From: Parazoarcus communis
GTDB taxonomy: Bacteria > Pseudomonadota > Gammaproteobacteria > Burkholderiales > Rhodocyclaceae
DNA length: 64,000 bases
Direction of reading: 5' to 3'
NCBI RefSeq assembly: GCF_003111645.1
Contig: NZ_CP022187.1
Span: 2,666,001 to 2,730,000, forward strand
Position 1 is the stretch's first letter; the number at the start of each line of letters is the position of its first letter. Shown here piece after piece: positions 4,374 to 45,413 of this stretch. The translations under genes were made by a program, and so were the position numbers. Below the pieces are notes generated by a model, which had not been told where the DNA came from, made no database searches, and was given only the letters and a program-made list of their open reading frames with translations.

Positions 4374-5630
4374 TCAGGCGGCGACTTCCGGCGGCAGGGC
4401 GATCGTGTTGCCGGTGCTGTAGCGGTAGTCGTTGAACACATGCTCGGCCGAGAGGATCTGGTAGTTGCCATCCTCATTCTTGCGCGTGGTGTCCTTGAGC
4501 CGGTAGGTGTAGTGGCCACAGGTCCAGCAGTCGAAGTTGCGCATGTGGGTGCACAGGCAGGTCTTGTCCATCACCTTGACCTTGGCGGCCTCGGGATGTG
4601 CGGCGACTTCGCGGTTGTAGGCGTCGATGTACTGGCAGTTGCCCTTGGCGTCGAGCAGATAGCCGAAGGCTTCGCAGTTGGGGCGAATGCCGCTGCCGAT
4701 CGCAGGGCTGTTCTTGAGCATGCGCATCGGATAGCCGGTCGGCGAAATGCCGTTGACCTCGATGTCGTCCTCGCTGGCCTTGAAGTACTCCTGCTGCACG
4801 TCTTCGGGCAGCCCGCACTCGTCGGTGACGGTGAAGCGCGTGGCAACCTGAACCGCCGCGGCGCCCATTTCGAGGAAATTCACCGCATCGCTGCCGGTAA
4901 AGATGCCGCCGGCCGGAATCAGCGGAATATCGAGCTGCTCAGCCTGCAGCCAGTCGCGGATCTCGACCATGATCGAGGCCAGGTCGAATGCGGCCCAGTC
5001 CATGCCGAACCCGAGGTGACCGCCCGCGAGCGGGCCTTCAACCACGACGTAGTCGGGCATGCGGCCGGTGCGTGCGTTCTTCTTGAGGAAGAGTTGCAGT
5101 GCGCGCAGCGAGGACACGATGATGCCCAGCTTGACGTCGTTGAAACGCGGATGATCCTGGATCAGCGCAAACGAGCCCAGGTGCAGACCCGCCGCCAGCG
5201 TGATGCCGTCGATGCCATGGTCCATGGCGGCCTGCAGACGCACCCGCAAGGTTTCCTTGGGGCCGTTCATGGTCAGCTTCTCCATGCAGTTGATGAAGAC
5301 CAGACCCGGGCCGCGCTTGGCCTCCATGGTCTTGCCCACATGCATGGCCGTCGCTTCGGCGAGCAGTCCGAGGTCGAACTGCACCACCGACTTGTCGGAA
5401 TTTGCGACGTTGAACTTGTACTGCTTGAGCTTGTTCTTGACGAACTTGGTGTTGAAGCGCCGGTCGGAAACGGTCGGCACCATCGCGTCGGAAATGTGCC
5501 CGATACCACCGAGGCGCGCAGCCTCCAGTGAGAGTTCGGCCGTCGAGATATCGACACCCATGCCTCCCACCATGATCGGTACCAGTTCATGCGAGCCGAG
5601 CCGCAGGCGAAAATCATCAACACGCTTCAT
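4374..5630 (-). CDS. Nitronate monooxygenase / 2-nitropropane dioxygenase family flavoprotein
   Basis: FMN-dependent TIM-barrel oxidoreductase of the NMO/NPD family, about 418 residues. Recognisable: LVPIMVGGMGVDIST at the start of the barrel, VVEGPLAGGHLGFG (the family's substrate/flavin loop), IPAGGIFTGSDAVNFLEMGAAAVQVATRF (FMN phosphate site). The C-terminus adds a cysteine-rich tail, CLCTHMRNFDCWTCGHYTYR, that ordinary nitronate monooxygenases lack, which suggests a distinct subfamily, perhaps metal or Fe-S binding. Start at ATG 5630 (MKRVDDFRLRLG) is preferred; ATG 5684 would add 18 atypical residues. Real substrate unknown. A strong terminator follows. Confidence 0.82.
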   Translation of the reverse strand: MKRVDDFRLRLGSHELVPIMVGGMGVDISTAELSLEAARLGGIGHISDAMVPTVSDRRFNTKFVKNKLKQYKFNVANSDKSVVQFDLGLLAEATAMHVGKTMEAKRGPGLVFINCMEKLTMNGPKETLRVRLQAAMDHGIDGITLAAGLHLGSFALIQDHPRFNDVKLGIIVSSLRALQLFLKKNARTGRMPDYVVVEGPLAGGHLGFGMDWAAFDLASIMVEIRDWLQAEQLDIPLIPAGGIFTGSDAVNFLEMGAAAVQVATRFTVTDECGLPEDVQQEYFKASEDDIEVNGISPTGYPMRMLKNSPAIGSGIRPNCEAFGYLLDAKGNCQYIDAYNREVAAHPEAAKVKVMDKTCLCTHMRNFDCWTCGHYTYRLKDTTRKNEDGNYQILSAEHVFNDYRYSTGNTIALPPEVAA

Positions 5631-39180: not shown

Positions 39181-40455
39181 TCATTGCTTCTGCATCACGA
39201 AGAATCCGTAGCCGTAACTTGCGCAATGGCGGCGGTGCATATCGGCCTCTTCCTCGCAGGCGGCATACACGGCATCGGCCTCGCTGATGCCAGCATTCTT
39301 TTCCTTCAGCGCTTGAATTCGCGCGAGCATGGGCGTGTAGTAATCGTTCCACCACGCACTGGTCGGCAGCTTAAAACTGTCGACGAGCGCGTAGCCATGC
39401 TCTTCAGCGAGCTCGCAAATCCTGGCCATTGACCGAATGTCCGGATACACGCGGTTGAGATATGTACGAATCTTAGCCGGCGGATCAGCCTCGAACCAGC
39501 ACATCTCGGTGAAGGCCAGGTAGCCGCCTGGCTTGAGGTACTTGCGAAAATCCTGCAGTCCGCGGGTCAGACCGATGATAAAGATCGAGCCTTCGGCCCA
39601 CAGCAGATCAAAGTGCTCCGGGTTGAAAGGCATGTCGATCATCGACATCTCCTGCGTCTCCACACTGAGCCCGGCGTCTCTTGCGGCTTGATCCAGGCGG
39701 CGCAACAAGGGCGGGTGGTTATCGATGGCGAGAATCTTCGTTTTCAGCTCGCGCGCCAACGTGAGGGTCTGCAGTCCGCTGCCGCAACCGATGTCCAGCA
39801 CCACGGGGTTGGCGGGCAGGTGTTTGAGCAGGCGCAGCGCCTGCAGGGTAGCGTCTTCACAGCCTGGTCCCTGGCGAGGAAGGCCTTCGAAGAGCTCAAA
39901 GAAGTAGTGCATTGACATGGTGTTGTTCTCAATGTTTCGGGTCAGCATTCTGACCTCGGTGGCTTCTTTCTCGCTGAGGCCAAGCCTCAGGAGAAATGCG
40001 TGATGTGCGGCCGGTGCTCGGCATTCAAATTCGGTGTGCCAGCGCCTGAGTGCCGTCGCATCGAGTCCGCAAGCGCGCTGCAACTCCAGCCAGAGCGTGC
40101 GGTCCAGACCGGCCGCATCCGGTCCTGAAGCGGCCGTTTTAAGCATTCCCGCAATCACCCGCTGCTGTGACTTCAGCGCCGTGACGGCTTGCCCGACTTC
40201 GCGCAGACGGCGCTCCAAAATCGGCCCCTGTGGTGTGTCGTTGTCCAGCAGCTTGGCAATATCATCGAGGCTGATTCCGGCTTCACGGAAAGCGCAAATG
40301 CGTGCCAGTCGGTCGCAGTCCGCGTTTGAGTACAGGCGATAATCTGCCTCGCTGCGTCCGGATGGACGCAACAAGCCGATGCGGTGGTAATACAACAGGG
40401 TCGAGCGTGAGAGACCGAAGCGCCGGCCCAGTGCAGTGATGCGGAAGTTGTCCAT
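39181..40455 (-). CDS. MerR-type regulator fused to a SAM-dependent methyltransferase
   Basis: 424 residues. Residues ~4-75 are a MerR winged HTH (RITALGRRFGLSRSTLLYYH, RLARICAFREAGISLDDIAK), followed by a helical linker (~76-130), a middle region, and from about residue 200 a class I methyltransferase with motif I VVLDIGCGSGLQTLTLA, motif II ILAIDNH and FDLLWAEGSIFIIGLTRGL, KYLKPGGYLAFTEMCWFE. The fusion suggests a regulator that detects or modifies its own ligand, or an enzyme controlling its own synthesis. The ATG at 40455 coincides with the predicted transcription start of a MerR-style promoter, so the mRNA may be leaderless. Confidence 0.87.
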   Translation of the reverse strand: MDNFRITALGRRFGLSRSTLLYYHRIGLLRPSGRSEADYRLYSNADCDRLARICAFREAGISLDDIAKLLDNDTPQGPILERRLREVGQAVTALKSQQRVIAGMLKTAASGPDAAGLDRTLWLELQRACGLDATALRRWHTEFECRAPAAHHAFLLRLGLSEKEATEVRMLTRNIENNTMSMHYFFELFEGLPRQGPGCEDATLQALRLLKHLPANPVVLDIGCGSGLQTLTLARELKTKILAIDNHPPLLRRLDQAARDAGLSVETQEMSMIDMPFNPEHFDLLWAEGSIFIIGLTRGLQDFRKYLKPGGYLAFTEMCWFEADPPAKIRTYLNRVYPDIRSMARICELAEEHGYALVDSFKLPTSAWWNDYYTPMLARIQALKEKNAGISEADAVYAACEEEADMHRRHCASYGYGFFVMQKQ

Positions 40456-40461
40456 ATGCAC

Positions 40462-40492
40462 AGCCTAAACCGTGAAGCTATAGACGGGTCAA
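40462..40492 (-). promoter_or_regulatory. MerR-style promoter with 19-bp spacer
   Basis: Read leftward: -35 TTGACC (40492-40487), 19-bp spacer, -10 TAGGCT (40467-40462). A partial dyad CCGT-N10-ACGG fills the spacer. Elongated 19-bp spacers with a central dyad are the hallmark of MerR-regulated promoters. The expected start of transcription, about 7 nt past the -10, falls on the A of ATG 40455. Confidence 0.5.
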
Positions 40493-40933: not shown

Positions 40934-43903
40934 TCACGATATAGCCGGGCTTGGGGGTGCCTCGTCAGCCAGTTCATCGAGTACTGCAAAAACGCCATCG
41001 AGATCGTCGTGATAGAAGGCTGTGTAGCTAGGCAAAAAAACGCATCGCCCTCTGTCTTGGAGACCAAGCCCCCGAATGTGATCGCGATGCGTCAGCCAAT
41101 AACTCCCCATAGCCCTCGGATCCAACCCACCTGGTAGCCCCGACTTGGTTGCGACATAGCCCTCTTCGTCGAGCCCCGTTTGGAACGGGCTGCTCAAGTG
41201 GGCGAGACAATGGTCGAGAAACAGCAGCACGTTGTCGGCGTGGACGTCGGGGCTAAAGCAGAATCCAAAGACGTACTCGTTCATCAACCTGGAGATGCCA
41301 CCGCCATCTTCAGCACCTTTTTCATCGTAGTAACCGCATCCAACGCCAGCGCCATTCGGAGGCCTCGAATTGCTGAGCTGATAGATGACGAACGACGCGG
41401 CAAGGGACCGTGCAGCCGCAACTCGACGAGCAATCGTTGTATCGCCTTGCTCGGATGCGGGGTCTAGCGAAGCCTGCTCATGAAGATGCGCAAAGGCTTG
41501 GCCGAGGAGCGCATCCACAGGCACTTCACGTGCCTCAGCAAAAAAGTTTCGTCCAGGCTCAATGTAGGTGCGCTTGAAGTGCGCGAAGACTTGCTGAGAC
41601 AGCGACCTCATCTCGAGCAGCGCCAGCTTACTGACTAACCCAGTCGTTGGAGCAGACATGTCCTGGTGGACAATGAGCGCAGTGTGGAGGTTGTACAGCT
41701 GACCACCGCGATCCGCTGAGCACTGCAGCCTGAAGAGCATGAGGTCCTTCCAACCCAGAACGCCGCGCTCTGGGCAAGCAAGCCGTCCCAGCAGGCCTCT
41801 TCCAACGAAGGCGTGCTCGCCAAAGATGCGCCACGCGATCTCGACGACGTTCTCCGGAGTGTTTGCCCGTCGCCGGCCTGCACTACGCCCCCAGCCTGCG
41901 CGATCCAACAAGCGCAATAGCGAATAGACCGACCTTGGGCGCAGTCCTCGGTCATCGTGGTCGAACGTCGAGTAGCGTGGCAGGTACTCAACGAGCGTTT
42001 CGATGGCGTCTTCTGTGGTCGGGCTGGTGAAGTCGTGGGCCTGATTGACCAGTACCCGCCAGAACTGGTCGTGAGCGGTCTCTTGTTTCTCAAGAGCGAA
42101 CTCCGGTTCCGCAAAAACTAAGGCAATCGATCGACCCTTGCGAACCCGATCCACCGCTGTTTGGTATAGAACAAAGGTCTCCTGCGGCTCCGGCGCGGCA
42201 AAGCGCACGATGAGCTTCAGAAAACTCTCCAAGTTTCTGGTGTTGCCCTTGTTGAAGCACGCCCGGGACCGAAGAACAGACTCTTCAATGTTGCGCCCGT
42301 CGCCCAGCTCCAACACCCCTACATCAAACAACTGTTCCAGCAGGAACTTGGCAGGACCTGGATGCCCTTCCTTGATCTGCTCAAAACCATCGGCGTTCTT
42401 GAAGTCTGGTTCGTCGTACATACGCCGAACGGAGAAAGTACCACTGCGCCCCTCTGTCTCCTCGGCGTATATGCGCCTGAACAACCCGGGATAGTTCAGA
42501 TGCAGCAGCATTAGATGGATGAGGTCGCGCTTGTTGAAATCAGTCCGCCCAAGATCGGTCTTCTCGATTTGCATGAGAAGGATGGCATTGATAAAGCGCT
42601 TGACCTTACGTAGATCGCCGATCAACGTAAGGTACTTGGCGGAAGACTCTCCAGCCAAGATCCCCGCAAGCTCATTGAGAACGGCTCCAAGCTTCACCAT
42701 CGTGTCCGATGGCACGGACCCGAGCTGGCTCTCGCTCTTTTCCCAGTCGCGTTGCAAGAAGTTGCGGATGCTGGAGCTGTCCACGAACAAGCTCAGCTTG
42801 ACCGTCACAAATTTTTCAAGGAACTCACGCGCCCGGGATCCTTCCTCATTGCCACCGGCCAGAACTTCGGTGTCATAGCAAAGGACGTAGGTCGCTTGCG
42901 ACAGCTTGAAGGTGCGTCGCGTTGCGAACAGAACGTTGTTGACTGTCTTTGCGTCCAAACGATCCAAGTCGTCGATGACAACGATCACCCGTCGGCCGAT
43001 GCGGCGAAGGACCTCGTCAATGTCGTCAAGCAGCTCATCGACAGTTTCCTGGGAAGGCTCCAGTGAAAGCTTGAAGCCCAGGAACGAAACGTCAGCCTTT
43101 CCCTTTATGAGCCGAGCGTATCTAGAGGCCGTAGGGCGGAACTCCGGTGCGAAGACTTTGTTTTGAATCGCGGCAGACAGGTCGCGAATCAAGCGATCCG
43201 CAAGATCTGGCTCAGACGCGTATCGAAGGGGCTCGAACCGACAAACAATCACCTCGTCCGCGGCCCGCTGCCAGTGGCGTTCGGCAAGATTGATGAAGCT
43301 TGTTTTGCCTACGCCCCACGGCCCGTCCACACCGAACACCAATCCTGAGTGAGCGCGGCTGTCGAGGACGGTTTCCGCGAAAGATTTCGCTTGCGACTCG
43401 TTGGAGAGCAAGTCGTCCGCATCGCGCTCGATCTCCTCATCCGCAAGGAACCGGAGCTGAGGCTCCATCTGCCGTCTCCTTGGCCAATGACGTTGAACGA
43501 GTGGCGACAACAGCACAGTGGAGAGCAGCAGAAGAGCAATTGGCGCCCAATGCGGGCTTGCGGCCTTCAAGGCGGCGTGAAACTTGGAAAGCCACGGCAT
43601 GGTCAACTCGTTCGACCAAGCCCCAAGACAAACTGCCATCAGTAGGTCAAAACGAAAGCTTCGACCCATTTGGACGGCGGCAGTGAATGCGCCGCGATTC
43701 GCGGCGTAGACCACACAGATCGCCAGTCCGGCCAGAACCACGATGCCGCTTGCCCAGACCTCGAGATCAGCCACTGCAGGCGCGAACGCGGTCCCCAGGT
43801 AATAGGCTGCCCTGCATACCTCAGCACCAACCAAGCCAACGACGAACATCTTGGCGAAGACCAAGAGTTCCGGCATCTTCATGGTTTGCTTGGTGCCTGC
43901 CAT
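40934..43903 (-). CDS. KAP-family P-loop NTPase with N-terminal membrane helices
   Basis: 989 residues. About three or four TM helices in the first 140 residues (PELLVFAKMFVVGLVGAEVC, VWASGIVVLAGLAICVVYAA, APIALLLLSTVLLSPLV). The KAP domain starts near 165: Walker A GVDGPWGVGKTSFINLAERH (191-210) and Walker B RRVIVVIDDLDRLDAKTVNN (304-323), then FATRRTFKLSQATYVLCYDT (sensor 1 strand). The last ~500 residues are helical with no domain I recognise. KAP NTPases are frequent in phage defence and plasmid/phage exclusion loci. AGGGAGGAA precedes the ATG. Third gene of the operon, 58 nt after the nuclease gene. Confidence 0.9.
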   Translation of the reverse strand: MAGTKQTMKMPELLVFAKMFVVGLVGAEVCRAAYYLGTAFAPAVADLEVWASGIVVLAGLAICVVYAANRGAFTAAVQMGRSFRFDLLMAVCLGAWSNELTMPWLSKFHAALKAASPHWAPIALLLLSTVLLSPLVQRHWPRRRQMEPQLRFLADEEIERDADDLLSNESQAKSFAETVLDSRAHSGLVFGVDGPWGVGKTSFINLAERHWQRAADEVIVCRFEPLRYASEPDLADRLIRDLSAAIQNKVFAPEFRPTASRYARLIKGKADVSFLGFKLSLEPSQETVDELLDDIDEVLRRIGRRVIVVIDDLDRLDAKTVNNVLFATRRTFKLSQATYVLCYDTEVLAGGNEEGSRAREFLEKFVTVKLSLFVDSSSIRNFLQRDWEKSESQLGSVPSDTMVKLGAVLNELAGILAGESSAKYLTLIGDLRKVKRFINAILLMQIEKTDLGRTDFNKRDLIHLMLLHLNYPGLFRRIYAEETEGRSGTFSVRRMYDEPDFKNADGFEQIKEGHPGPAKFLLEQLFDVGVLELGDGRNIEESVLRSRACFNKGNTRNLESFLKLIVRFAAPEPQETFVLYQTAVDRVRKGRSIALVFAEPEFALEKQETAHDQFWRVLVNQAHDFTSPTTEDAIETLVEYLPRYSTFDHDDRGLRPRSVYSLLRLLDRAGWGRSAGRRRANTPENVVEIAWRIFGEHAFVGRGLLGRLACPERGVLGWKDLMLFRLQCSADRGGQLYNLHTALIVHQDMSAPTTGLVSKLALLEMRSLSQQVFAHFKRTYIEPGRNFFAEAREVPVDALLGQAFAHLHEQASLDPASEQGDTTIARRVAAARSLAASFVIYQLSNSRPPNGAGVGCGYYDEKGAEDGGGISRLMNEYVFGFCFSPDVHADNVLLFLDHCLAHLSSPFQTGLDEEGYVATKSGLPGGLDPRAMGSYWLTHRDHIRGLGLQDRGRCVFLPSYTAFYHDDLDGVFAVLDELADEAPPSPAIS

Positions 43904-43961: not shown

Positions 43962-45413
43962 TCAACGAGAAAGCTTGCTGGGACGGGTAATGTTTCCTAG
44001 GACTACGATGGTCACGACCGTAACTTCCGCAGGCGGGGCAGATCTCAGGATGGCGAGTCCGTCGGCCGCCGGCCAGGGAGCGGTCTCCTTCTTGCTGCAG
44101 TCCAGGACGCACAGCAGCGCAATTCGCTTGCCCTTTGCAGCCGCATAGCTCGCCGTTTGCTCGACGTAGCACTGGCAGTCTTCGACTCTCCGGATACGAT
44201 GGTCCACGGACTTCAGTTCGATGGTGATCCCACGAAAACTCAGGTCCGTGATGCCGCCTGCCGCCGCAGGGTGCTCCTCGAGGTCGGATCCGATTCGAGG
44301 CGCACGCCGCAGTTCCTTCCGCACGTAGTCCTGAAACCGATTTTCGGGCCAGATCCCATCGAACTCCGCGTCCTGAACCGCTCGGCCAGCCATGTTGCAC
44401 AGTACCGCGAGAAGCTCAAGCACATCCGAGAGCTCATGCACATTGGCCAGTCCTTGTTGTCGAAGCAGGTCACGGACCGATACGATCTTCTCGTCCATCG
44501 CGGCGTAACCGGTAATCGGGTGTGACTTGATGTCGATCCCCTCGACAAGGAGGGTGCGATGGCCGACGATGGCTACGGGTTGCTCCACACAGGCAGGTTG
44601 AAACGCGGCGGCGTACTTGAACTCGAACGGGCGGGCCTTGAGCCCTTGCGCTACCTGGAGGATCGCCCGCCCTCGTTGAACCAGCGTGTAGGGCGCCTTC
44701 CCAGGTGGTTTGGGGAATGTGAACTCGGATAGTTCGTAGGAGCTTCGCGGCTCCGCCGAAACCGGAGTTAAGGTGAGATGCGTCGCGTTGTCTGGCCATC
44801 GCGAGACCCGCACCTCAATCTCCATGTCGTGCATCTCGCGCGGCACCAGGTGGTGAACATCGGCGGCCAGCTGGCCTCCGAGCTGAAACTTCAGGAACGC
44901 AACGGAGAGCTCTGCTGGCCGAGGCGCCACCTCGTCGGCCGGATCCTTTTTGCGCGGAACCCTGAGCCCCTCGTCCCCGAACACCCCAATGGGCAACGGA
45001 ACGCCTGACAGGCTGCAGCAGAGGGCTTCGAAGTCGCCGAGTGTTGCGATCGAAGGGACGGCAGTCGATGCGTCCAGCAGAGACTTCGCTTCCGACCTTT
45101 CCCCGTACTCGTTCACCCAGAGGCGGTGGCGCTCGATCGCGCTTCGCAGGAGCCGATCGCCTGCCTCCGAAGCGTCAAGTACCGACTGTCTCCACTCTGC
45201 CAATGTCGACACGATGCGCAGTAGTCCCGCGAAAGCGCCGTACGCCGTTGCAGTTGCTGCCCGTCCATACTGAAGGGACGCGCCGTCCAGCGCTGCGCTG
45301 ATTTGTCTGAGCGTCTCGGCTTCAACGGTCCCGCCGTTGCCTAGCCTGCTAAGCGCATCAACCGCCTCGATACGTGCGAAGAAAACTTGGGAGAGGATCG
45401 CGTCTTGCCGCAT
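43962..45413 (-). CDS. PD-(D/E)XK nuclease-type protein
   Basis: 483 residues. The first ~340 residues are unrecognised, mixed helix/strand. The C-terminus carries a restriction-endonuclease-fold core: FQDYVRKELRR helix, GGITDLSFRGITIELKSVDH with D390, E399 and K401 forming the D-(x8)-E-x-K motif, then a helix EDCQCYVEQTASYAAAKGKR followed by a buried strand IALLCVLDC. This order is that of PD-(D/E)XK nucleases. The start ATG overlaps the end of the upstream HEAT-like gene by 56 nt, implying translational coupling. Likely the DNA-cutting effector of the three-gene system, which is inference. Confidence 0.82.
   Translation of the reverse strand: MRQDAILSQVFFARIEAVDALSRLGNGGTVEAETLRQISAALDGASLQYGRAATATAYGAFAGLLRIVSTLAEWRQSVLDASEAGDRLLRSAIERHRLWVNEYGERSEAKSLLDASTAVPSIATLGDFEALCCSLSGVPLPIGVFGDEGLRVPRKKDPADEVAPRPAELSVAFLKFQLGGQLAADVHHLVPREMHDMEIEVRVSRWPDNATHLTLTPVSAEPRSSYELSEFTFPKPPGKAPYTLVQRGRAILQVAQGLKARPFEFKYAAAFQPACVEQPVAIVGHRTLLVEGIDIKSHPITGYAAMDEKIVSVRDLLRQQGLANVHELSDVLELLAVLCNMAGRAVQDAEFDGIWPENRFQDYVRKELRRAPRIGSDLEEHPAAAGGITDLSFRGITIELKSVDHRIRRVEDCQCYVEQTASYAAAKGKRIALLCVLDCSKKETAPWPAADGLAILRSAPPAEVTVVTIVVLGNITRPSKLSR

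Follow-up and report, generated by a model that had tools for sequence, protein, structure and literature searches.

A MerR-methyltransferase fusion gene preceded by a conserved MerR-type promoter: a candidate one-gene circuit for small-molecule modification

The gene described here, located in a 64-kb stretch of DNA from Parazoarcus communis that was analysed as a whole (the window), encodes a MerR-type regulator and a methyltransferase in a single chain and is interpreted, with a probability of roughly 0.58, as a one-gene, self-inducing circuit for the modification of a small molecule. In such a circuit, a dimer of the MerR part would bind its own promoter at the 19-bp spacer and keep that promoter weak. 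A small, probably toxic compound would then bind to the C-terminal part of the protein, most likely to a domain designated here as WHxxFE and possibly together with the methyltransferase pocket, whereupon the ligand-bound MerR part would untwist the spacer, as is characteristic of MerR regulators, turn the promoter on and thus yield more of the regulator-enzyme. Finally, the methyltransferase domain would methylate the compound and, in doing so, remove the signal.

The gene covers positions 39181-40455 on the minus strand, with the ATG at 40455, and codes for 424 residues plus a stop codon. A MerR-methyltransferase fusion, as the sequence-only reading had proposed, was confirmed by the Pfam scan of the 424-aa protein, MerR_1 matching residues 4-72 (E 2.8e-19) and Methyltransf_25 residues 219-311 (E 5.6e-16). 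From the N- to the C-terminus, all on the minus strand, the protein consists of the MerR winged helix-turn-helix (aa 4-72; 40240-40446), a long helix visible in the AlphaFold model (aa 77-109; 40129-40227; mean pLDDT of the whole model 86, pTM 0.61), the WHxxFE domain with four predicted helices (aa 117-176; 39928-40107), and a class I SAM methyltransferase domain (aa 180-424; 39184-39918) recognised by Pfam, phmmer and VIA-align. An N-terminal winged helix-turn-helix followed by such a long helix is a hallmark of the MerR family, and by analogy with that family the helix is presumed to be the coiled coil serving dimerisation. The G+C content of the gene is 59.3% vs 62.9% for the window, so that base composition gives no sign of an island. 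It should be noted that directly upstream of the fusion there is a gene for a KAP-family P-loop NTPase (PF07693, E 4.8e-55; 40934-43903, minus strand), itself preceded by a 483-aa ORF without a Pfam match (43962-45413, minus strand), and these could be a defence-type pair. The neighbours in the window were considered as a functional clue and set aside, since the other betaproteobacterial loci have neither the KAP NTPase upstream nor the GGDEF-EAL gene in convergent orientation.

Concerning the promoter, the -35 element TTGACC (40487-40492) and the -10 element TAGGCT (40462-40467), both on the minus strand, are separated by a 19-bp spacer, CGTCTATAGCTTCACGGTT (40468-40486, minus strand), presumed to be the MerR operator. 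The pattern TTGACN-N19-TAnnnT occurs only once in the window with both strands searched, namely at the fusion promoter, and the search of the 4.57-Mb genome for the family operator, allowing up to three mismatches, returned one site—the fusion's own—and none for the reversed control. A stock sigma-70 scan found no promoter at TTGACC-N19-TAGGCT, because it covers spacers of 16-18 bp only and the site has 19 bp; for MerR promoters, spacers of 19-20 bp are given as typical (PMC9909328). Palindromic operators are among the characteristics of MerR regulators. The dyad claimed previously to lie between the -35 and -10 elements did not withstand comparison with shuffled spacers, since 7.6% of the shuffles equalled the best one at the window site, and at seven other sites the proportion was 31-91%; the dyad was accordingly rejected as evidence for a MerR operator.

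A promoter of the TTGACC-N19-TAGGCT type precedes the fusion gene in all 16 loci examined (four betaproteobacterial and 12 gammaproteobacterial), two of the 16, L071 and L108, being close relatives (94%). Besides the window, the betaproteobacterial copies come from Thauera (L038), Azoarcus (L039) and Dechloromonas (L040), with 83-90% protein identity, whereas the identity between the beta- and gammaproteobacterial fusion proteins is only 31-34%. The scoring matrix, built from the four betaproteobacterial sites alone and then applied to the gammaproteobacterial loci, detected the operator in 12/12 of the latter with scores of 24.3-31.8; its maximum over 1.23 million shuffled positions was 16.3, and in the real locus L070 a second position scored 21.5. 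Within its locus of 9-13 kb, the operator of every gammaproteobacterial fusion ranks first or second; where it comes second, as happens in three loci, the top rank is held by a further operator of that locus. Invariant in the 16 promoters are the TTGAC of the -35 element, the 19-bp spacing, positions 1, 2 and 6 (T, A, T) of the -10 element and, in the spacer, site positions 8, 10-12, 16, 17, 20 and 23-25, whereas positions 3-5 of the -10 element vary. The 19-bp separation of TTGACC and TAGGCT noticed in the sequence-only reading is therefore borne out by the coordinates and by this conservation, and so, as far as sequences can tell, is the MerR-type self-promoter, by the site, the spacing and the three invariant -10 positions. 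A further hallmark of MerR regulation is an operator placed inside the target promoter's spacer, which is 19-20 bp long, and by sequence the fusion loci have the corresponding 19 bp in 16/16 cases. Judged by its conservation, the promoter has the look of a used MerR-type promoter, far from chance, and the view that the fusion protein would regulate its own promoter is strongly supported by sequence.

With regard to the start of the mRNA, conservation among the four betaproteobacterial copies covers the promoter block up to the ATG and is lost further upstream, except that an additional ~70 bases are common to the window and Thauera. The end of the -10 element lies 6 nt before the ATG in 4/4 of these copies (GTGCAT in the window; 40456-40461, minus strand), and a transcription start 7 nt past the -10 element would fall on the A of the ATG at 40455, at or near which it is predicted; in the 12 gammaproteobacterial fusions, the distance to the start codon is 25-53 nt. 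An in-frame GTG found six bases before the ATG reads GCG in Dechloromonas, the ATG therefore being the conserved start. The leaderless mRNA suggested earlier is thus plausible for the four betaproteobacterial copies, but not as a trait of the family. Predicted from the distance between the -10 element and the ATG, leaderless translation in the betaproteobacterial clade is likely, and for CvkR (Alr3614), a protein of the MerR type, translation of a leaderless mRNA has been reported (PMC9938897). The alternative of an ordinary leader, with transcription starting upstream of the block, concerns this part of the interpretation only; it would agree with the 25-53 nt of 12/12 gammaproteobacterial relatives, but in 4/4 betaproteobacterial copies the -10 element, in which T, A and T are invariant, ends just in front of the ATG and the sequence further upstream is not conserved across them, and such a leader is considered rather improbable.

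The gene has a patchy distribution. Of 199 genomes of the host's family, two have near-full-length copies, one of the two being the window's own, and four other genomes of the same genus have none; 16 plasmid records, two of which were examined, have one place covering at least 80% of the protein. The flanks of the four betaproteobacterial loci have only the gene and its promoter in common and no flanking gene. The copy from Azoarcus taiwanensis (L039:4001-5269, plus strand) has a stop at codon 400, by which the last residues are lost, and the copy L117 is broken; the gene is therefore dispensable. It seems that the gene moves together with its promoter; the two can also be lost. These observations bear on the possibility that the fusion is an autorepressed housekeeping enzyme, the MerR part keeping expression low and constant and the substrate being endogenous, e.g. 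a quinone or a lipid. The sole operator of this genome being that of the fusion's own promoter would be in line with it, as would the ubiquinone-pathway intermediates proposed as substrates by the authors of the BT_2972 study (PMC3225368). The patchy presence in the family and genus, together with the plasmid copies, speaks against it. Housekeeping enzymes are not usually patchy or plasmid-borne in their distribution, and this explanation is regarded as unlikely.

As for the methyltransferase domain, its nearest solved structures are BVU_3255 and BT_2972 of Bacteroides and their relatives (phmmer E 3.3e-46 and weaker). VIA-align superimposed the model of the domain on 3t7r with a Z of 33.2 and an rmsd of 2.1 Å over 245 aa, the values for the group (3t7r, 3svz) being Z 30-33 over 229-250 aa with 32-34% identity; sequence and fold thus both place the domain in the BVU_3255/BT_2972 group, which, for BT_2972, has been judged to be of the small-molecule type and binds SAM and SAH (PMC3225368). 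The SAM motif GCGxG, D245 and D283, as well as W286, E288, W320, Y337 and Y372, are retained in 13/13 fusions and, at the level of sequence, the SAM-binding motif of the fusion is intact. Unlike the fusion, the two Bacteroides proteins are stand-alone enzymes without a MerR part. Two trees were consulted on the number of fusion events, one or two. In the methyltransferase tree, the betaproteobacterial fusions group weakly (92/87) with the stand-alone enzymes L041 and L042; of the 41 stand-alone loci listed for it, L043 was left out as a fusion and those with a match below 200 aa or an internal stop were dropped, which gave 32 rows, the rows L042 and L085 representing the same gene. In the N-terminal tree, one clade uniting beta- and gammaproteobacterial fusions is not rejected (p-AU 0.44).

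The WHxxFE domain, lying between the MerR and methyltransferase domains and overlooked in the earlier reading, corresponds to no Pfam or NCBIfam family, its name having been coined in this analysis. W139, H140, P148 and H151 are invariant in all 20 aligned rows, and the domain is a conserved companion of this MerR domain. No fold relationship was deduced, the PDB profile search having given weak, partial matches only (7bqb, 0.0025; the SLA1 domain 3idw, 0.0038) and VIA-align a Z of at most 3.3 over 13 chains. MerR-WHxxFE proteins without a methyltransferase, ~170-210 aa long, are present in other genomes. In the loci L072, L073, L078, L079, L080, L082, L133 and L134, a gene for a free WHxxFE protein of ~55-80 aa (~55-65 aa in the first six, e.g. 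L073:7298-7489, minus strand) lies between the operator and the MerR-WHxxFE gene. The free WHxxFE is replaced in L081 by a 133-aa protein without a Pfam match, the ORF of which begins ~65 bases past the operator at 4925 (plus strand), and L083 has no small protein at that place behind the operator. Among the 12 larger MerR-WHxxFE regions without methyltransferase, the operator scored above 16 in nine, the weak ones being L073 (20.5) and L074 (17.2), and the matrix scan found none in L075, L076 and L077; by a looser pattern, the operator is present in L106 and L107 and absent from L065. A free C-terminal domain beside the full regulator is also known from TipAL/TipAS (PMC6078987, PMC7762955), and by this resemblance WHxxFE would be the best candidate for the sensor, better than the methyltransferase itself.

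The operator was also searched for in 24 genomes holding members of the family and was present in 16 of them, the reversed control giving 0 in 24/24. In the gammaproteobacterial loci L071, L108 and L116 it stands, in addition, before a gene for a GNAT acetyltransferase, and GNAT adjoins the fusion in 7 of 12 gammaproteobacterial vs none of four betaproteobacterial loci. In three genomes (L136, L138, L139 and L141, two copies being in one genome) it precedes an alpha/beta-hydrolase gene, cut short in L138, that stands away from the fusion gene; from its hydrophobic N-terminus, the hydrolase is probably exported. In a fourth genome (L110), the gene immediately following the fusion codes for a hydrolase homologue with 67% identity. 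A site with two mismatches before an Hsp70-like gene in L137 is a single case and may be due to chance, as may a site without a clear gene in L142; the site in L130 lies near a contig end. Since the GNAT and hydrolase genes of the window's genome have no operator in the 4.57 Mb searched, it is for the relatives that a wider regulon is predicted. In the record of a Streptomyces plasmid, a related methyltransferase (38%) is annotated as a fusion with an N-acetyltransferase. One switch for methylation, acetylation and hydrolysis would point to the modification of a small molecule, and the regulon of the relatives, comprising methyltransferase, acetyltransferase and hydrolase, makes such a role more likely.

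The same regulon weighs on the idea that the methyltransferase domain acts as a sensor only, with SAM, SAH or a methyl acceptor as its ligand and the methylation state signalled to the MerR part, the gene being regulated for homeostasis with little or no catalysis. MerR proteins are by nature sensors and the methyltransferase group does bind SAM and SAH (PMC3225368), but all 13 fusions have retained the SAM motif along with W286, E288, W320, Y337 and Y372, and an operator that also drives separate GNAT and hydrolase genes suits chemistry on a molecule better than the sensing of SAM, so that a purely sensory domain appears quite doubtful. A self-marking switch, with the methyltransferase acting on DNA, RNA or protein near the operator, is suggested by the DNA-binding and methyltransferase domains in a single chain, but is highly improbable, the best 50 structural matches comprising the Bacteroides group, small-molecule methyltransferases and unassigned enzymes and none titled a DNA or RNA methyltransferase. 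The self-inducing modification circuit itself has to be weighed against several observations: the dyad is statistically weak, the gene is dispensable, E. coli with the BT_2972 gene remained sensitive in tests with four antibiotics or antibiotic classes (PMC3225368), and a mutant in a V. cholerae MerR-methyltransferase, related to the fusion by description only, had no colonisation phenotype (PMC9662190).

If the proposed circuit is true, the sensor and the modifying enzyme of a resistance-like system would be one polypeptide under its own promoter, able to move as a 1.3-kb piece of DNA. The conserved operator would offer a handle, with a reporter of 40456-40492 being screenable for the inducer, which would be the candidate substrate, and WHxxFE would represent an uncharacterised sensor candidate common to many proteobacterial MerR proteins. 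More tentatively, and with the odds somewhat against it, an undescribed MerR subfamily may be envisaged, defined by the four-helix WHxxFE sensor and an operator of about TTGACCYGTCTATAGCTTCAYRGTTTA, and occurring either as a bicistron with a free sensor or as a methyltransferase fusion with a regulon of GNAT and an exported alpha/beta-hydrolase. Its three inducible enzymes would together defend against one class of natural products, and in betaproteobacteria the system would have shrunk to a single leaderless, mobile and self-inducing gene.

With respect to known systems, among the papers that the literature search listed, some of them judged from that listing, a single one was found to mention a MerR protein with a methyltransferase domain (PMC9662190), and neither the operator nor WHxxFE nor the regulon was found described; the word 'methyltransferase' does not occur in the accessible portion of the review PMC9909328. 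The protein mentioned, VCA0264 (MerR1) of V. cholerae, is described in one sentence as a MerR protein with a C-terminal methyltransferase domain, i.e. by published description alone it has the same domain order as the fusion, and the text available reports no promoter, ligand or function for it (PMC9662190). CvkR, unlike the fusion, has no enzyme domain and represses CRISPR-associated transposons, its authors' data, in the part of the article consulted, pointing away from autoregulation (PMC9938897). The TipA class (TipAL/TipAS, SkgA and also AlbA) covers minimal autoregulated multidrug-resistance systems (PMC7762955). No TipAS match was obtained in the Pfam scan of the fusion with E up to 1, nor in those of the free WHxxFE and the stand-alone MerR-WHxxFE protein with E up to 0.1, although the folds may be distantly related, and TipAS arises from an internal start, whereas the free WHxxFE of the relatives is a separate gene. 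Both the TipA class and the fusion nevertheless combine a MerR winged helix with a C-terminal helical module, and the autogenous control characteristic of the class has its predicted counterpart in the self-operator of the fusion; while the TipA domains trap the drug, the fusion additionally carries a methyltransferase.
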